From assembly GCA_947626715.1 (NCBI GenBank), contig CANQTG010000001.1, forward strand, positions 1 to 64,000: 64,000 nt of DNA. The letters are read 5' to 3'. Below the pieces are notes generated by a model. It had not been told where the DNA came from. It worked only from the letters and a program-made list of their open reading frames with translations, and made no database searches. Of this stretch, positions 32,063 to 42,747 are shown one piece after another (position 1 is the stretch's first letter; every line of letters starts with the position of its first letter). Origin of the DNA: an uncultured Lachnospiraceae bacterium. GTDB taxonomy: Bacteria; Bacillota; Clostridia; Lachnospirales; Lachnospiraceae. The translations under genes were made by a program, and so were the position numbers.

Positions 32063-32869
32063 TTATGATTTTTTCGTTTTAAACTGCCGCAGAACTTTAA
32101 GTGTTCTCCGAATATCTATTATAAACGCGCCTTTTATCCCATTCTTTTTTAAGCCTTGATGACCTTCCCACAATGATAACATGTAACTCTTTAATCCTTG
32201 TGTACTGGTTCCCCCATAATACATTTTAACGATAACCTCTGGAACATAAACCAATCTGGCTTCCTGACCGTACAAACACCGAAGCATAAACTCATAATCG
32301 GCCGAGCATTTATACGACGTATCATACAATCCGCATTTTTCATATACTTCGCGTTTTAAATATAAAGTAGGATGTCCCGGCATCCACCCCTCTCTGAAAC
32401 TTCCAATCCCCATATGCCAAAAGCGAACAATTTTACCATCATTTACATATACAAGGTCTGCATGAGCTCCCACGCAGAATTCTCCGCCGCTTTCTATTGC
32501 CCCGACCATATGCTCCACTACATGCGGATGTGCCAAACAATCATTAAAAAACACTACGATATCTCCACTGCACATATGATATCCCTTATTCATTGCATCA
32601 TAGATACCACGATCCGGCTCTGATTTCCATATCAGCCTGTCATTTCGACCGCATGAGACCAATCTATTTTTATACTGCTTTATCAAATCCAGCGTTCCGT
32701 CAGTAGAGCCTCCATCTGCAATCACAATTTCTATTTCAGAGTATTCCTGAATCAAAATAGAATCTATCGTTGTTTTCAAGGTTTTAATACAGTTATAAGT
32801 AGTCAATATAAAAGATACTTTCTTCATGTTTTTCCGTTTATATTTCTCCCTCCCCGATACAATTCCCAT
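32063..32869 (-). CDS. GT2 family glycosyltransferase
   Basis: VSFILTTYNCIKTLKTTIDSILIQEYSEIEIVIADGGSTDGT; start may be 32829 (MKKVSF). Confidence 0.92.
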   Translation of the reverse strand: MGIVSGREKYKRKNMKKVSFILTTYNCIKTLKTTIDSILIQEYSEIEIVIADGGSTDGTLDLIKQYKNRLVSCGRNDRLIWKSEPDRGIYDAMNKGYHMCSGDIVVFFNDCLAHPHVVEHMVGAIESGGEFCVGAHADLVYVNDGKIVRFWHMGIGSFREGWMPGHPTLYLKREVYEKCGLYDTSYKCSADYEFMLRCLYGQEARLVYVPEVIVKMYYGGTSTQGLKSYMLSLWEGHQGLKKNGIKGAFIIDIRRTLKVLRQFKTKKS

Positions 32870-34797
32870 CAGGATATCCTATCAACACTTTCAGCCCATA
32901 AGATTGCATAATCAGCGTTTTCTCCATAATTCCATATACACCGATAAATATCAGTTCCATATTCTATACAGGTTCCGATCTCCATATCGCCTGTGTGAAC
33001 AGCTAAAATACACTCCGGTTGCCAGAAAATATTTTTATCGGATAATACAATCGGATGTATCGTCGTATTTTCATTTTTTAATGCAACCCACAAAGGATAT
33101 TCGTAAGTGTCTCCGCCTAACAGCAGACCAATATTTTTTGCTCCCATTTTTTCTGCAGTCGCTGTCAATTCTCGATAAGGTTCTGTTTCCTCCTGACGGT
33201 TCAAAAAATAAAGATCAAATCTCGCTTCTCCGTCCCATACCGCCTGCGCATATGAATCCGCCTGCATTTTTATAGTCCTAATCCCATCTGGGAGCATTAA
33301 CAATAAAACGATACTCATGACTAATATATTCATATAACGGTACTCTTTTTCTGCATTTATTGTATAGCCGATAAAAATACATATCAAAGGCAAAATTGGC
33401 ATCAACAATCTGGTACCCCATGGCTGCCATCTAATACAGAAAAGCATCGTCCCTGTTGAACATAATAAACTGCATATATATGTTAAATTTATTACTTCCT
33501 TCCTCTTCTTTTTTTTAATGAGAGAATATAACAAATGCAATATTGCAAATATACAAACAATCCCTGATATTAGGAACAAGGTTCGTGCCCCTGCTGTATC
33601 ATGATGATACGATTTTACGGCGCCTCTTCCCTCAGAATAACCATAATACGCAGATATTTCCAAGTCCTCTATATCAACCTGCAAATAATCCGCCAATTTA
33701 ACGGTCATCTGCCAGAAAGCGTCTGGCTGTTCTTCCCCTGCGATCTCCAGCGTCAAATTCTTACAGCCATTCAATAATAAATACCTCGGAGATATTGTTT
33801 TAACCATCAGATTCCCCGCCACCTGTTCAAGCGCCAAAATGTTCCCGGTACTCTTATAATTTCTAACAAAACTGGGAAACGCCAGTAAAATAATAATGCC
33901 CGCTGCCAGTACAACTGATTTGAAAATAGTCATAACAGATTCCTGTTTTTTCAAACATACAAGCAACAGCCATAATAACAATAAAGGCACCATAAAACAG
34001 ATGCTGCTTTTCGTTAGATATCCAAATCCAATGCTGCATGCACAAAACACTATATTATGCATATTTTCTGACGAACATAAAGGCAAAGGAGACTTCCCTA
34101 TTTTTAATATAAACCATGCAATCATCAGCAAGTACATAGTTGCTAGTAAATCGACCTGCGTCGTCATACTTTCTGCGATCGCTAATGGACACAACATAAA
34201 TAACAGAGCCGAAAAAAGCGCTCCTCGCTTATCTGTTCCTAATTTTATACTAATTTTATAAGTCATCACCGCAGATAATACATAAGCGAGCCATTGTACT
34301 ATATTAACTAGCTTATCGCTTTTTAAAAGCAAGCATAGATGCAATATAATATATTCTGTAAAATTTGAATAATACAACTGGCGCAGAATACTGGTGGAAT
34401 AATAAGCTACCGATCTGTTTTGTATCCAATTTGCAACTCTAGCCATATGATATGTCATGGAATCCCAATTATTGGGAACGATCGTATACGATAATATAAA
34501 CATTATCAAAGCTAACAATAAGATCAATACCGACAATAAGCGTTCAAACCATTGCCCCCCCCTCCACACATCTTCTTTCAATTTATCTTTCGCATATATC
34601 CATGCGCTGCCTTTTCCACTTTTCATTCTCTTTAACATAAGGAGCACACTTAAAAGGCCGAAAATAATCCAAATTGTCCTTATAGCCGTATAAGTAAGGA
34701 ACTGCATAGCGCTCAATATTTCCGTTGAAAACCAGATTATCATTGAAAAGCAAATAATAATCTCAGGAAAACTCTCTCTCTGCTTCTCTCTATCCAT
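32869..34797 (-). CDS. GT39-like membrane glycosyltransferase carrying an in-frame G8 tract
   Basis: NNWDSMTYHMARVANWIQNRSVAYYSTSILRQLYYSNFTEYIILHL, multiple TM segments. Confidence 0.8.
   Translation of the reverse strand: MDREKQRESFPEIIICFSMIIWFSTEILSAMQFLTYTAIRTIWIIFGLLSVLLMLKRMKSGKGSAWIYAKDKLKEDVWRGGQWFERLLSVLILLLALIMFILSYTIVPNNWDSMTYHMARVANWIQNRSVAYYSTSILRQLYYSNFTEYIILHLCLLLKSDKLVNIVQWLAYVLSAVMTYKISIKLGTDKRGALFSALLFMLCPLAIAESMTTQVDLLATMYLLMIAWFILKIGKSPLPLCSSENMHNIVFCACSIGFGYLTKSSICFMVPLLLLWLLLVCLKKQESVMTIFKSVVLAAGIIILLAFPSFVRNYKSTGNILALEQVAGNLMVKTISPRYLLLNGCKNLTLEIAGEEQPDAFWQMTVKLADYLQVDIEDLEISAYYGYSEGRGAVKSYHHDTAGARTLFLISGIVCIFAILHLLYSLIKKKKRKEVINLTYICSLLCSTGTMLFCIRWQPWGTRLLMPILPLICIFIGYTINAEKEYRYMNILVMSIVLLLMLPDGIRTIKMQADSYAQAVWDGEARFDLYFLNRQEETEPYRELTATAEKMGAKNIGLLLGGDTYEYPLWVALKNENTTIHPIVLSDKNIFWQPECILAVHTGDMEIGTCIEYGTDIYRCIWNYGENADYAILWAESVDRIS
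34555..34562 (-). repeat. G8 homopolymer (coding strand), in frame in the GT39-like CDS
   Basis: attgCCCCCCCCtccacac; codons TGG AGG GGG GGG CAA TGG. Confidence 0.93.
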
Positions 34798-34798
34798 T

Positions 34799-36574
34799 CT
34801 ACATCAACTCCTCATATAGGCGTCTGACAGCTTTTCCATCTTTGATTTCATAAATGGCATCACAATTTTTAATGGTGGTCAATCTGTGCGCAATAATGAC
34901 CAAAGTCATTTTGCCATGCAGAGAATCGATAGCTTCCATAACCGATTTCTCTGTTTCGTTATCCAAAGCAGAAGTCGCCTCATCCAAAATCAATATTTCT
35001 GGATTATGGTATAAAGCTCTTGCAATTCCGATTCTTTGCCTCTGTCCGCCTGACAAGCGCACGCCCCTGTCTCCTACTTTAGTATGGATTCCTTTCGGGA
35101 GCTGCCGCACAAAATCTAATAGTTCAGCTTTTTCTAATGCAATTTCAACGCTGTTTTCATCTATCTCCAGAGGTTCCACTCCAAACGCTACATTTTGACA
35201 GATAGAGGTATCAGAAAGATAAATGCTCTGAGGAACATATCCAACCAGACGTCCCCACAATGCCGGAATCCTTTGAATATTAATATTATCCAGAAAAACT
35301 TCTCCTTCGTCAGGGCGCAAAACTCCCAGAAGCAGATCCGCCAATGTAGATTTCCCTGCGCCTGATTCTCCTATAAATGCAACTGATTTCCCTTTAAGAA
35401 TTTTTAGGCTTAATTGATTCAGTACCGTTTTTTGATCTTTGTTATATGTGAAAGTCACATTCTGTATATTAATAGACTCCTTAAAAGCAAAAGTCTGATC
35501 GGATTCTCCATCTTCCGAATCGATATGATAAAAGCTATCATTATACTTACGCGCATCTATTATATTTTCATATACTGCATTCAGACTCGGAATAGAACCT
35601 GAGATCGTATTGATTGCAACAGAGATCTTCCCAAGCGCAGGTAAGATTCGAAACGCTCCGATCGCGAAAGACGCCAATACCGCTACAAGGCTTTGTGAAT
35701 TAGAAATATTTACAATTCTGATTCCTAAGATAGTCATGATCCCTACAATACAGATTGCCTCAATAATATACGCCGGTATTTCTCCCCCCACATTCTGAAC
35801 CACCGTGGCATTTTGGCGTTTAATGGTATTTTTTTCAAATTCCTTAATAAAATATTTCTGTTTTCGCATCACTAGGACTTCTTTAATCCCATGAAACGCC
35901 TGTAGCAATGCCTGTGATGAAAGAATACTATAGGTCCTGATCAAGAATCCTGCCTGCAACATTTTCTTCCTGAAAATAACAAAAATCAATAATAAGCAGA
36001 TTAACGCCGATAAAATAATCCCTATGGCGATCTGCCAATCTGCATAGCACATATAAATACAGATAAATGCCGCTATCATTATCTGTGTCGCCGCCTGAAG
36101 CAAACCATTTATAATTTGATATAGGGAGCCTACATCGCCATTAACTCCCTGTATCAATTCATTTACGTTCCGTTCTAGGAAAAATCGGTATCCGCGGTTC
36201 ATATAAGACTGCATCATATATACGGAGCACTCTCTTTGTATCTTACATGAATACTTAAACTTTAACCATGCAAAAAAAATAAAATATAGATTCTTAAATA
36301 TATAAATCAAAATAACTGCAATTATAATGGAAGCGACTAATTTATCATTTGTACGAATATCACAAAGATCCGTTATTTTCTTGATATAAGGATTTCTAAA
36401 AAGCTGTTCCGGCTGCAACAGCGCATTCACTAACGGCACAATAATAGAAACCCCTAAGGTTTCCAACACTGCCGCAATAAAAGAGCACACAAGAACAATC
36501 GAACCCATCATTTTTTGGTTTCGATTTAATATACGTGAAAGTTTCTGTAAAGTGTCTATCGTTTCTCGTATCAT
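34799..36574 (-). CDS. ABC transporter, fused TMD-NBD (PglK/MsbA-like)
   Basis: GESGAGKSTLADLLLG, LSGGQRQRIGIARAL, EILILDEATSALD; start trimmed to MIRETIDTL with SD GGAG. Confidence 0.93.
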   Translation of the reverse strand: MIRETIDTLQKLSRILNRNQKMMGSIVLVCSFIAAVLETLGVSIIVPLVNALLQPEQLFRNPYIKKITDLCDIRTNDKLVASIIIAVILIYIFKNLYFIFFAWLKFKYSCKIQRECSVYMMQSYMNRGYRFFLERNVNELIQGVNGDVGSLYQIINGLLQAATQIMIAAFICIYMCYADWQIAIGIILSALICLLLIFVIFRKKMLQAGFLIRTYSILSSQALLQAFHGIKEVLVMRKQKYFIKEFEKNTIKRQNATVVQNVGGEIPAYIIEAICIVGIMTILGIRIVNISNSQSLVAVLASFAIGAFRILPALGKISVAINTISGSIPSLNAVYENIIDARKYNDSFYHIDSEDGESDQTFAFKESINIQNVTFTYNKDQKTVLNQLSLKILKGKSVAFIGESGAGKSTLADLLLGVLRPDEGEVFLDNINIQRIPALWGRLVGYVPQSIYLSDTSICQNVAFGVEPLEIDENSVEIALEKAELLDFVRQLPKGIHTKVGDRGVRLSGGQRQRIGIARALYHNPEILILDEATSALDNETEKSVMEAIDSLHGKMTLVIIAHRLTTIKNCDAIYEIKDGKAVRRLYEELM

Positions 36575-36629
36575 TTCATATCTCCGTACTGCCCTTTCCA
36601 TATAGTAAATAATGAACGTTTTTCCTAAA

Positions 36630-37582
36630 TTATACTCGTTCGCTTTCTTCTTTACAGATAAGCAATCTCTTTTTTCCATATCTGGCGGCAAAAAATGAAA
36701 AAACGCTTGTATAAGAGCCTAATATATATTCGCAGCGAGATAAACATAAACAATCGACAATTCCCGATTTCATCTCACCGCTTTCCTCTCTTCCCCATTC
36801 CTTATCCTGTTGTACTTTTAACCTGTTTCCATATATATTCTTTAATTTTTTCTCTTCAGATATGTCATCTGTCGCAAGAAAGAACCGTGCTTCTTTCTGT
36901 CCCTCTATGATTTCATCTATTTTTTTAATAAACGCATTTGTATTGCTTACTTTAGCAGCTCTTTGATGATCGGTTCTTCTTATATGGATACCGATAACTT
37001 TCTCTCCCGGAATAATTATCTTTTCTGCTCTCTCCAGATATTCTTTTCTAAACTTAATAACGCCATAATCAATATTTTCCTGTCCTTTGTCCTTGACTAT
37101 CCCACAAAATGCATGAATATAAATTTCTCTATCTCCCATGAGCCTTTTACGTATATTATTCCATGTATTGGACATATGTTCATAATATTTATCACTAAGC
37201 TCTTCCACATTCTTTGCTGGGAAATAACTGAAATAATTCTCTCTAAATACCATTTGAGATAATTTTTCGCATAATCTGCTTTTAAATAACGCTGTAAGGA
37301 ATCTGACGGCTCCTATAAGATGAATGCGCTTAATATTTGACCAAAATCCACCATACTTATCATAATTAAGATACTTCAGGTCTATTTCGATAACTTTTAT
37401 CTCAATATCAGCGAATATATCAGCGGCAAAGACTTCCCGAAAACTTATACCGCAATCTTTATCCACCGGCCAGACGATCACAAGCTTTTCCTTCTCCCCC
37501 CCCTCATTGATTTCACTAAATGATATGCATGAGCCAATGTAACGCATCTGCTCATCAAGCCGCTATAAACCTGTATATACAT
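36630..37582 (-). CDS. NodZ/GT23-like fucosyltransferase superfamily gene, frame-disrupted at a G8 tract (candidate phase-OFF)
   Basis: ORF 36630-37547 has VIGIHIRRTDHQRA and RFFLATDD. Upstream frame from 37582 encodes MYIQVYSGLMSRCVTLAHAYHLVKSMRGG..., which would join KLVIVWPVDKDCGISFREVF if the tract were G9. Confidence 0.75.
37496..37503 (-). repeat. G8 homopolymer at the frame break of the fucosyltransferase-like gene
   Basis: cttctCCCCCCCCtcattg; frame analysis on the reverse strand. Confidence 0.93.
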
Positions 37583-37639
37583 TTCCTCATCCTCTTACTT
37601 AACATCCTGAATCGTATTCCGTCAATCCGCCTAAAGAGA

Positions 37640-38974
37640 TCAGCCTTCTATAGCGGTCTTGAGCGTATCTGTCATATAATCTATCATCTCATCTGTCATC
37701 CCCGGGTATACGCCAATCCAAAAAGCATCCCTCATAATCCTGTCCGTAACCCTCAATTCTCCAACCACGCGATAGCCCTCTCCGCTTATCCGCAGTTCAT
37801 CAAAGCATGGATGGTTGATTAGATTCCCTGCAAAAAGCATTCTGGTCTGTATTCCTTTCCTCTCCATCAGCCTGACTATATATTCTCGGTCTACTCCCCG
37901 GCAGAGAATCAAAAAGCCAAACCAACTTGGATTCGCATGTTCACAAGGCTGTGGTAAAATCATTTTATCCTGCAGATCTTCCAAATTTTTATATATTCTA
38001 TTAAAATTATATCGCCGCCGTTCTGTAAACGCCGGAAGCTTCTCTATTTGCGCACAGCCAATCGCCGCCTGCATATCAGTAGCTTTTAAATTATATCCGA
38101 AGTGCGAATACACATATTTATGGTCATAGCCTTTCGGCAATTCTCCATAATGCCCGTCGAAACGATGGCCGCACATATTATCATGCCCGGACGGGCAGAT
38201 ACAATCCCTTCCCCAATCCCGCATTGAACGAATAATTTTATGCAATAATGCATTATTGGTGTATACTGCCCCGCCCTCTCCCATCGTCATATGATGCGGC
38301 GGATAAAAACTAGAAGTCGCAATATCTCCTATCGTTCCTGTAAAATACCACTTGCCATCTATCTCATATTGCGAACCGAGCGCATCGCAATTATCTTCTA
38401 CAAGCCAAAGGCTATATTTTTCACAAAATTCTTTAACTTTTTTCAGATCAAAAGGATTCCCCAAAGTATGCGCAAGCATTACTGCTTTCGTTTTTTCTGA
38501 AAGCGCCTCCTCTAACATATTTACATCCACATTGTATTGAGGGATCGTCACATCCAAAAACACCGGGATTGCCCCGAATTGGATCATCGGCGCAACCGTC
38601 GTCGGGAATCCCGCCGCTACAGTAATAACCTCATCACCACGTTGTATACGTCTTTCTCCAAGTAAAGGAGAAGTAAGCGCCATAAAAGCAAGCAGATTCG
38701 CCGAAGAACCCGAATTTACAACAGAACAATACCGGATATTCAGATATTCCGCCAGTTTCTTTTCAAATGCATCCGTATATCGCCCGGATGTCAGCCAGAA
38801 CTCCAATGAGCTGTCCACCAGATTTCTCATTTCTCTGCTGTCATAAACCCTAGAAGCATAAGGAATTCTCTCGCCAGCTTTCCATGCTTTCTTCTCATGG
38901 TATTTCTCGCAATATACTTCTACCTGCCGTAATATCGTTTCCCTTGCCTCCTGCTCAGACATGTTATCAAACAT
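37640..38974 (-). CDS. rfbH: CDP-4-dehydro-6-deoxyglucose 3-dehydrase (PLP, DegT-like)
   Basis: MFDNMSEQEARETILRQVEVY...VNSGSSANLLAFMAL...GDEVITVAAGFPTTVAPMIQFGAIPVFLDVTIPQYNVD...FYPPHHMTMGEGG (H at the PLP site, as in RfbH/E1). Start trimmed from 39172. Confidence 0.93.
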   Translation of the reverse strand: MFDNMSEQEARETILRQVEVYCEKYHEKKAWKAGERIPYASRVYDSREMRNLVDSSLEFWLTSGRYTDAFEKKLAEYLNIRYCSVVNSGSSANLLAFMALTSPLLGERRIQRGDEVITVAAGFPTTVAPMIQFGAIPVFLDVTIPQYNVDVNMLEEALSEKTKAVMLAHTLGNPFDLKKVKEFCEKYSLWLVEDNCDALGSQYEIDGKWYFTGTIGDIATSSFYPPHHMTMGEGGAVYTNNALLHKIIRSMRDWGRDCICPSGHDNMCGHRFDGHYGELPKGYDHKYVYSHFGYNLKATDMQAAIGCAQIEKLPAFTERRRYNFNRIYKNLEDLQDKMILPQPCEHANPSWFGFLILCRGVDREYIVRLMERKGIQTRMLFAGNLINHPCFDELRISGEGYRVVGELRVTDRIMRDAFWIGVYPGMTDEMIDYMTDTLKTAIEG

Positions 38975-38990
38975 ACATCTTCTCCCAATA

Positions 38991-39767
38991 TTACCAAATC
39001 TTCCAAGGCGCATCCTCTGATTCCCAGAGCGATTCCAGATAATTCTTATCTCGCAGCGTATCCATCGGAGACCAAAAGCCCTCATGCCGATACGCCACCA
39101 TCTCACCCGCTTCTGCAACGGCTTCCAACGGGCCGGCTTCCAGCATCTCTCCGCCATCTCCCAAATAATCAAATATTTTACGATTCATAACCATAAAGCC
39201 CGCATTTACCCATGCTTGGTCAACCCGCGCCTTTTCTTTAAATCCTTTTACTTGATTTGTTTGGGGATCGATCTTCAACGCCCCAAATCTTCCCATTGGC
39301 TGCGTTGTTGTAATCGTTACTGTTTTTTTGTATTTATGATGGAACGCCAATAACTCTGAAATATCAACATCAGCCACACCGTCTCCATAAGTTAGGAAAA
39401 ATTCTTCGTCTTCGCCAATATAATCCCGAACCTTTAATATCCTGCCCGCCGTTAATGTATTTAATCCCGTATTGACCAGAGTTACCCGCCACGGCTCCGC
39501 AAAAACTTCATGAACTAAGATCTCTTTGTTTTTCAACAAAAATGTACTATCTGACTGATTAACATAATAGTGTATAAAATATTCTTTTATCATCTGGCCT
39601 TTATATCCACAGCAGATAATAAACTCATTATACCCGTAATATGAATACAATTTCATGATATGCCAGAGAATTGGTTTCCCTCCTATTTCTATCATAGGTT
39701 TAGGGCGCATATACGATTCTTCGCTAATGCGCGTACCCATACCCCCTGCTAAAATTACCAATTTCAT
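38991..39767 (-). CDS. rfbF: Glucose-1-phosphate cytidylyltransferase
   Basis: MKLVILAGGMGTRISEESYMRPKPMIEIGGKPILWHIMKLYSYYG...CCGYKG...FWSPMDTLRDKNYLESLW. Confidence 0.94.
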   Translation of the reverse strand: MKLVILAGGMGTRISEESYMRPKPMIEIGGKPILWHIMKLYSYYGYNEFIICCGYKGQMIKEYFIHYYVNQSDSTFLLKNKEILVHEVFAEPWRVTLVNTGLNTLTAGRILKVRDYIGEDEEFFLTYGDGVADVDISELLAFHHKYKKTVTITTTQPMGRFGALKIDPQTNQVKGFKEKARVDQAWVNAGFMVMNRKIFDYLGDGGEMLEAGPLEAVAEAGEMVAYRHEGFWSPMDTLRDKNYLESLWESEDAPWKIW

Positions 39768-41499: not shown

Positions 41500-42747
41500 T
41501 TATATTGCATACAACACCGTTTCAGACAAATAATTGCTATAGTGTCTAATATATAATTTATATTCTGGCACTAATGTTTTTATATAATATGGTATCTCCC
41601 ATAAATCTTCTTTTTTATGATAAATACAAATAGCAAGTTTAGGCTTGTCTTTCAACAAAATATGTTTTGCTCCTTTTAATGCTCCTAGTTCAGAGCCCTC
41701 AATATCCATTTTAATGAATGTCACTTTTTCCTTAATATATGAGTCAAGTGCGATTACCTTTACTTTTTCTGAAGCTATATCGAATTGCTTTGAAGGATCT
41801 CCAACCGCTCCTAATATTCCTAACTCCGAAAAGTGAGAGGAAGAATTTCCCAAAGGAGAAAATTCCAAGTATTCGTTATCACTCCACAAGCCATACGGCA
41901 ATAATTCAATCTTATCTACTGCCAGATTACTTATTTTTTCTTTACATTTTTCAACATTTGCCTTATCAGGTTCAAAAGCATAGATCTTTTTATATTCTAG
42001 GCCCAACTCAGCCATTTTCTTAATAAATAACTCTCCTGTAGAAAAATCAAAGCAGCCTCCGTCAACAAATACCTCATCTTCTCCAAAATCCATTATTTTA
42101 TCAAAATACTGTTTCTCAAACGACTCTTTAAGAAAATAATAATCGTAATATTTATATATATCCTCCTCATGTATGCCTTTTTCTACTAACAAGCTAAATA
42201 TCTCTTCACAGACACCTTTATGCATAGGGCTAATAATAATAACATGGTTATTCATAAGCTTCTGCTCTAATAGCTCATCCAATGAAATGACAGATATTCC
42301 ATCTATTTTTGTATGCAGTTTCTCCGCACTACTGTCGCAAAATCGGCTGACTCTTACTCTCCCCCCCTCTTTCGGAAGGGACTGATCATTTAATCCAAGT
42401 CCAAACACGCAGCAGAATTCTCTACACAGTCCCCTTTGCTTGATCAATTTGACCATCTCTACATAATTCGGATGAAGGAGAGGTTCTCCATAACCATATA
42501 AATTGATAACTTTGATCCGCTCTGGAAATTCTTCCAAATCATCCAAGATCTTAAGGAATAATTCCATAGACATTTTTTCATGTCTTTCCTTTATCATAAA
42601 ATCGCTATTATTGCATGGACAAAATTTACAGGCAAAATTACACGCTCCACACGGATCTAAAAACAAGACAAAGGGGGCTTCTAAAGGTACCGCTTCTTCC
42701 AGCTTGGTCCTTGCATTACTATATTCTAATCGATCTCTATTGAGCAT
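41500..42747 (-). CDS. Chimera: truncated radical-SAM N-terminus + FkbM-type methyltransferase
   Basis: CGACNFACKFCPC (CxxxCxxC), YGYGEPLLHPNYVEMVKLIKQRG, then FGLGLND...FCDSSAEKLHTKIDGISVISLDELL, DEVFVDGGCFDFSTGELF, IKMDIEGSELGALKGAKHILL (FkbM). Confidence 0.8.
   Translation of the reverse strand: MLNRDRLEYSNARTKLEEAVPLEAPFVLFLDPCGACNFACKFCPCNNSDFMIKERHEKMSMELFLKILDDLEEFPERIKVINLYGYGEPLLHPNYVEMVKLIKQRGLCREFCCVFGLGLNDQSLPKEGGRVRVSRFCDSSAEKLHTKIDGISVISLDELLEQKLMNNHVIIISPMHKGVCEEIFSLLVEKGIHEEDIYKYYDYYFLKESFEKQYFDKIMDFGEDEVFVDGGCFDFSTGELFIKKMAELGLEYKKIYAFEPDKANVEKCKEKISNLAVDKIELLPYGLWSDNEYLEFSPLGNSSSHFSELGILGAVGDPSKQFDIASEKVKVIALDSYIKEKVTFIKMDIEGSELGALKGAKHILLKDKPKLAICIYHKKEDLWEIPYYIKTLVPEYKLYIRHYSNYLSETVLYAI
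42361..42367 (-). repeat. G7 homopolymer near the domain junction of the radical-SAM/FkbM chimera
   Basis: tactctCCCCCCCtctttc; codons AAA GAG GGG GGG AGA. Confidence 0.93.

Follow-up and report, generated by a model that had tools for sequence, protein, structure and literature searches.

In Helicobacter pylori, the fucosyltransferase genes futA and futB are switched in frame by poly-C tracts, and phase variation by invertible promoters is found in the capsule genes of Bacteroides and the surface genes of Clostridioides difficile. Genes of Campylobacter jejuni are switched by tracts of at least 8 (PMC6321876), and the tract of cgtB toggles between G8 and G9 (PMC6437147). Poly-G tracts of 7–8 were over-represented in 9 of the 99 genomes studied by Orsi et al. 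(PMC2831843), and the apparent confinement to pathogens of genomes rich in phase-variable loci is named in a 2025 review as a major question still to be answered (PMC11868660). A search of the open-access full-text literature found no report of poly-G contingency loci or of a multi-locus phasome in Lachnospiraceae; the mechanism is known, and the lineage is one in which such a switch seems undescribed. The locus described here lies in a window of 64,000 nucleotides (the whole stretch of DNA analysed) from an uncultured Lachnospiraceae bacterium, and is a fucosyltransferase-like gene divided by a G8 tract, a length near the lower limit of the switching range.

The split gene and its relatives

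A preliminary description had proposed a poly-G contingency switch captured in the OFF state, and its frame count was confirmed when the minus strand was read again, with the G8 tract (C8 on the plus strand) at 37496–37503, an ATG at 37582 and a stop at 37478 (Table 1). The frame from this ATG translates as MYIQVYSGLMSRCVTLAHAYHLVKSMRGGRRKSL and ends at TGA 37480–37478, while the longest open frame is an ORF of 305 aa (36630–37547; N-terminal letters MRYIGSCISFSEINEGGEKEK), the opening ~15 residues of which have no match in any relative. The tract is the sole lesion in ~950 bases, with the 290 codons 3′ of it open and the HIRRTD motif intact. As expected of a poly-G locus, the gene contains a homopolymer of at least 7–8 G, and a change in its length shifts into or out of frame two halves which form one continuous protein in relatives. 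The reading and the alignment support the view that, as assembled, the gene would be OFF, with two frames of one gene parted by the tract. Since the OFF-frame TGA overlaps a main-frame GTG, it is possible that re-initiation at this codon could yield a protein without the first strand and helix.

Table 1. Features of the split gene and its surroundings in the window
Feature	Position	Strand	Basis
NodZ/O-FucT-like glycosyltransferase gene, two frames divided at the G8 tract	36630..37582	-	Reading; six-sequence alignment; PDB profile match to NodZ (2.9e-7)
G8 homopolymer tract, coding for a 4-residue insertion without counterpart in intact relatives	37496..37503	-	Reading; alignment
Putative peptide of 34 aa made in the OFF state; its opening ~28 residues form the true N-terminus conserved in the family (SGLxxR motif)	37478..37582	-	Alignment; reading
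AGAGG, Shine-Dalgarno-like, 8 bases before ATG 37582	37591..37595	-	Direct reading
Main-frame GTG overlapping the OFF-frame TGA (GTGA)	37479..37481	-	Direct reading
HIRRTD motif (H200–D205 of the joined protein), intact, downstream of the tract	36969..36986	-	Reading; alignment
ABC exporter gene, overlapping the 3′ end of the fucosyltransferase-like gene	34799..36691	-	
PMT_2 glycosyltransferase gene carrying the second tract, readable	32869..34797	-	
In-frame G8 tract, the second of the window, after about 80 codons of the PMT_2-type (GT39-like) membrane transferase gene	34555..34562	-	
DegT/RfbH-like gene, directly upstream of the split gene	37640..39172	-	

Relatives were found in 32 of 397 family genomes, this genome included, in a family-wide search, and about 25 related ORFs open with M(I/L)IIxPxGGLxNRxxxxxSAxxLAxxxxxxLxVxW. 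A lack of homology between the 37582–37504 peptide and the family had been named as grounds for refuting the switch; in an alignment of six sequences, however, this peptide was found to carry the invariant residues M1, G8 (glycine), L9, R12 and A19. In the main frame L34, W38, F52, HIRRTD and C-terminal residues are invariant, and the intact relatives have all of these residues in one frame with no tract. The insertion encoded by the tract is missing from all five aligned relatives and sits between helix 1 and strand 2, as judged from secondary structure taken from the NodZ alignment. The best relative, from a Lachnospiraceae MAG (L038, contig JAITGA010000034.1), shows 39–41% identity over positions 6–310 and is unbroken across the region, and an RfbH-like gene adjoins both it and the split gene. 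No orthologous copy of the split gene was detected in the genus or in viral contigs, and among 143 tracts compared across genomes no homologous coding site of differing length was found in this genus.

The protein had been taken to be a NodZ/GT23-like enzyme. Pfam searches returned O-FucT (2.6e-5) and the FUT8 catalytic domain (0.0046), both under the gathering score, with no match to the Pfam NodZ model at E≤10 or to any NCBIfam model; a match to a curated GT23 (NodZ/FUT8) family model was therefore lacking. However, a family profile compared with the PDB matched NodZ (2HHC, 2.9e-7) at positions 7–265, nearly the whole length, as well as FUT8 and POFUT2 in the C-terminal half. Because of this match, set against the sub-gathering Pfam scores and the missing NodZ hit, the protein is placed by its sequence as a transferase of the NodZ/O-FucT superfamily and not provably of GT23, so that the GT23/NodZ membership suggested earlier is not established. 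The C-terminal half contains HIRRTD, an instance of HxRRxD, which we take to be the main GDP-fucose-binding motif of GT23/O-FucT enzymes. The loss of a donor-binding N-terminus, also suggested previously, holds for the first β-strand, the GGLxxR loop and the helix, but not for this main motif, which is intact downstream. GDP-fucose should be available from predicted pathway genes, as a GDP-mannose dehydratase (Gmd, over the cut-off), a GDP-fucose synthase-like gene and ManC lie side by side on another contig (C10). The predicted activity is probably fucosyl transfer from GDP-fucose.

The PMT_2 gene shares an operon-like run with the split gene. The cluster in the window was found to include ManC-type, CDP-glucose dehydratase-type, DegT/RfbH, NTP-transferase, GT4 and GT2 genes along with PMT_2, ABC exporter, FkbM and NeuB genes. 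It should also be noted that a single ORF at 41500–42747 contains an FkbM methyltransferase domain together with a radical-SAM domain that is truncated, and is either a fusion or a decayed junction.

Poly-G tracts in the genome, genus and family

Across the genome 59 tracts of at least G8 were detected, with 49 exact G8 tracts compared to 23 of exact G7 and ten longer than G8. Over 357 kb sampled from this genome, the counts of G/C runs with lengths of 5, 6, 7, 8 and 9 were 276, 16, 4, 7 and 2, against 248–457, 39–116, 5–32, 1–6 and 0.2–2 expected from Markov models of order 1–4, with runs of 6 and 7 under expectation and runs of 8 and 9 at or over it. A single-contig genome of the same genus (G007) contains 34 exact G8 tracts against 14 of exact G7. 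The present genome ranks first of 120 Lachnospiraceae genomes in its number of exact G8 tracts, the next having 34 (with 37 G7) and all others at most 16. As the counts of the other family genomes are mostly ≤16, the excess of G8 is strong in the genus and not across the whole family. The second-ranked genome (G459) belongs to another Lachnospiraceae genus. Two genomes from other families of the same order, G106 and G093, have 509 and 182 G8 words per genome, well over the rest.

In addition to the gene described here, at least five surface-modification genes of this genome are split at G8 or G9, namely MBOAT, FkbM, TylF, SGNH-like and sulfotransferase-like genes, the last two names resting on motifs rather than Pfam. 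The halves of the MBOAT acyltransferase cover Pfam positions 80–253 in one frame and 258–299 in the other, and the split TylF methyltransferase carries an N-terminal domain. About six genes are split in G007: a DUF4910/DUF2172 gene, two methyltransferase genes, an FkbM gene, a sulfotransferase-like gene and a TylF-like gene truncated at the tract. The tracts are thus above chance and the split genes of surface-modification type, although enrichment of this class was judged by eye. In three further species of the genus, the genes with tracts were mostly found, by reading, to code for glycosyltransferases, methyltransferases and exporters; in these species together with one other genus, tracts were found in GT4, GT2, TylF, FkbM, radical-SAM and ABC-exporter genes as well as in acyltransferase genes, of which one is split (by reading, without Pfam).

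By one rule, tracts of at least G8 split frames in 7 of 44 cases in this genome and 5 of 33 in G007, while control runs did so in 7 of 271 (G5/C5), 3 of 136 (A/T of 7 or longer) and 0 of 29 (A8/T8 or longer) cases. Fisher p values against G5/C5 were 0.001 (own genome) and 0.005 (G007), and 0.015 with the five strict cases only. Of the seven splits in this genome, one falls at a gene junction and another is found on the C strand; the split gene of the window is left out of this count, since its upstream part falls below the length set by the rule. A histidine kinase gene followed by a PfkB-like gene (L026), counted by the rule, was rejected as a split gene, being actually a gene junction. Coding-strand G bias was likewise rejected as evidence, the bias being equal for tracts (33:5) and G5 runs (220:38). 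Some in-frame tracts are in genes unlikely to be switched, such as PTS genes and lipoprotein linkers. Both MutS and MutL are present in the genome, so that loss of mismatch repair was rejected as the cause, and switching may be slower than in Campylobacter, with rates nearer those of mismatch-repair-positive species.

The halves of the split sulfotransferase-like gene show 75% and 85% identity to one intact neighbouring paralogue. Tandem sulfotransferase-like paralogues (L150, contig C92) were also observed to have G8 at three different positions, with one copy split and another holding two tracts in frame. Where one of two paralogues 80–90% identical in DNA carries a tract, the sequence of its partner is ordinary, from which it appears that tracts were gained independently and repeatedly at glycine-rich sites.

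Type I restriction specificity genes are often phase-variable elsewhere, and one such gene of this genome (Methylase_S; L024:1501, contig C21) contains an in-frame G8. In G025, two homologous phage-tail-like ORFs (L183) differ at one site, where one has G8 and the other G9, and this might be a switch of a phage tail. Tracts of G8–G9 were also seen between TTGAC(A/G), which they closely follow, and TAAAAT/TACAAT-like boxes in this genome (L076:130, L080:1591, L013:1501, L081:1581 and L085:1562), with a like promoter setting in G007 (L126:1501) and G004 (L167:3013). Several of these tracts precede secreted or lipoprotein-like ORFs, and they are candidates for promoter-spacer phase variation.

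Origin of the frame break

The G8 tract is considered likely to be a contingency switch of the slipped-strand kind, placed in a fucosyltransferase-like gene for surface glycans which the assembly caught OFF. Replication slippage would alter the tract length and so decide whether the conserved N-terminus, starting from ATG 37582, shares the frame of the catalytic body; in the ON state, a sugar, for which GDP-fucose is the probable donor, would be attached by the enzyme to the surface polysaccharide of the surrounding cluster. The gene would belong to a group of poly-G loci in the genome and genus, located mainly on enzymes that decorate surface glycans. The observed basis of this reading is the frame break, the homology of both halves, the genome-wide excess of tracts of at least G8, the other split genes and the GDP-fucose pathway. 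From these we infer length variation in the population, slippage as its cause, and the donor and acceptor. The switch as first proposed therefore stands with regard to the two frames of one gene at a poly-G tract in a member of the Clostridia, and is strengthened by the pattern of tracts in the genome and genus, but its length variation is still a matter of inference.

A fixed frameshift, in which a recent pseudogene broke at a mutable G run and does not revert, is unlikely. It agrees with the single state seen and with the presence of mismatch repair genes, and the closest relative is so distant (39–41%) that the age of the lesion cannot be judged. However, a second lesion is absent from the ~950 bases, and several more surface genes are broken in the same manner in this genome and in G007. 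In the sulfotransferase-like pair, the part downstream of the tract is under purifying selection (dN 0.073, dS 0.30, dN/dS 0.24), which also argues against it, as support and not proof, since a recent break gives an equal ratio. An assembly or consensus error, with a true tract that leaves the frame open, is less probable again, even though the genome is a draft of 162 contigs and an assembly would reduce a mixed population to a single tract length. The failure of A8/T8 and longer runs to split any gene disfavours general homopolymer error, most other genic G8 tracts are in frame, and a like pattern is present in the independently assembled single-contig genome.

Transcriptional slippage or ribosomal frameshifting could also yield the full protein from the G8 gene, which would then never be fully OFF. 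An eight-G run is a possible slippage site and the GTG overlaps the OFF-frame stop, but in intact relatives, which have no tract, a single frame codes for the enzyme, and frame states vary among the tract genes, making this very improbable. Strongly disfavoured is a functional 305-aa gene starting from ATG 37547 with the upstream peptide coincidental; it has in its favour only that it is the longest open frame, against its unmatched opening residues and an upstream frame with invariant residues and a good Shine-Dalgarno sequence. Overall, the observation is real and a contingency switch its most likely explanation.

With less assurance, we lean towards the wider view that the genus carries a poly-G phasome of ~20–40 switchable genes per genome, comprising glycan-decorating enzymes, restriction specificity and promoter spacers, the last with G8 between the −35 and −10 boxes of surface-protein genes. 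This phasome would have arisen independently of those of Campylobacter, Helicobacter and Neisseria, in a Gram-positive and mismatch-repair-positive gut lineage. If so, the question of restriction to pathogens could be tested directly in a Lachnospiraceae genus that has dozens of poly-G tracts, many of them located in surface-glycan genes, assemblies of such gut bacteria would systematically display switched-off glycan genes as broken, and tract lengths in existing reads would be a cheap readout of phage or immune pressure. Capsule expression in Mediterraneibacter gnavus was reported as not bimodal from promoter reporters, which would not show coding switches (PMC13121745).

Comparison with known systems

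As with futA and futB of H. pylori, a fucosyltransferase-type gene appears to be frame-switched by a G/C homopolymer; however, those enzymes are of GT10/GT11, whereas the present one is of a NodZ/O-FucT-like family and from a different phylum. It resembles the structures of NodZ (GT23), FUT8 and POFUT2 in its profile match and HxRR-type motif, and differs from them in having no Pfam NodZ match, O-FucT and FUT8 scores below gathering, and an activity that is predicted. Random switching of surface structures in gut bacteria would be shared with Bacteroides and C. difficile, which use DNA inversion instead of the tract slippage proposed here. There is also a resemblance to C. jejuni, with its coding poly-G tracts of at least G8 in surface-glycan transferase and methyltransferase genes (cgtB and capsule genes; PMC6321876, PMC6437147) and its many loci per genome in mixed ON and OFF states. 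Unlike C. jejuni, the present bacteria are Gram-positive Clostridia with a tract mode of G8 rather than G9 and with MutS and MutL, and their tracts are known from assembled sequences. The analogy suggests that these bacteria, like Campylobacter, switch their surface chemistry on and off at random.
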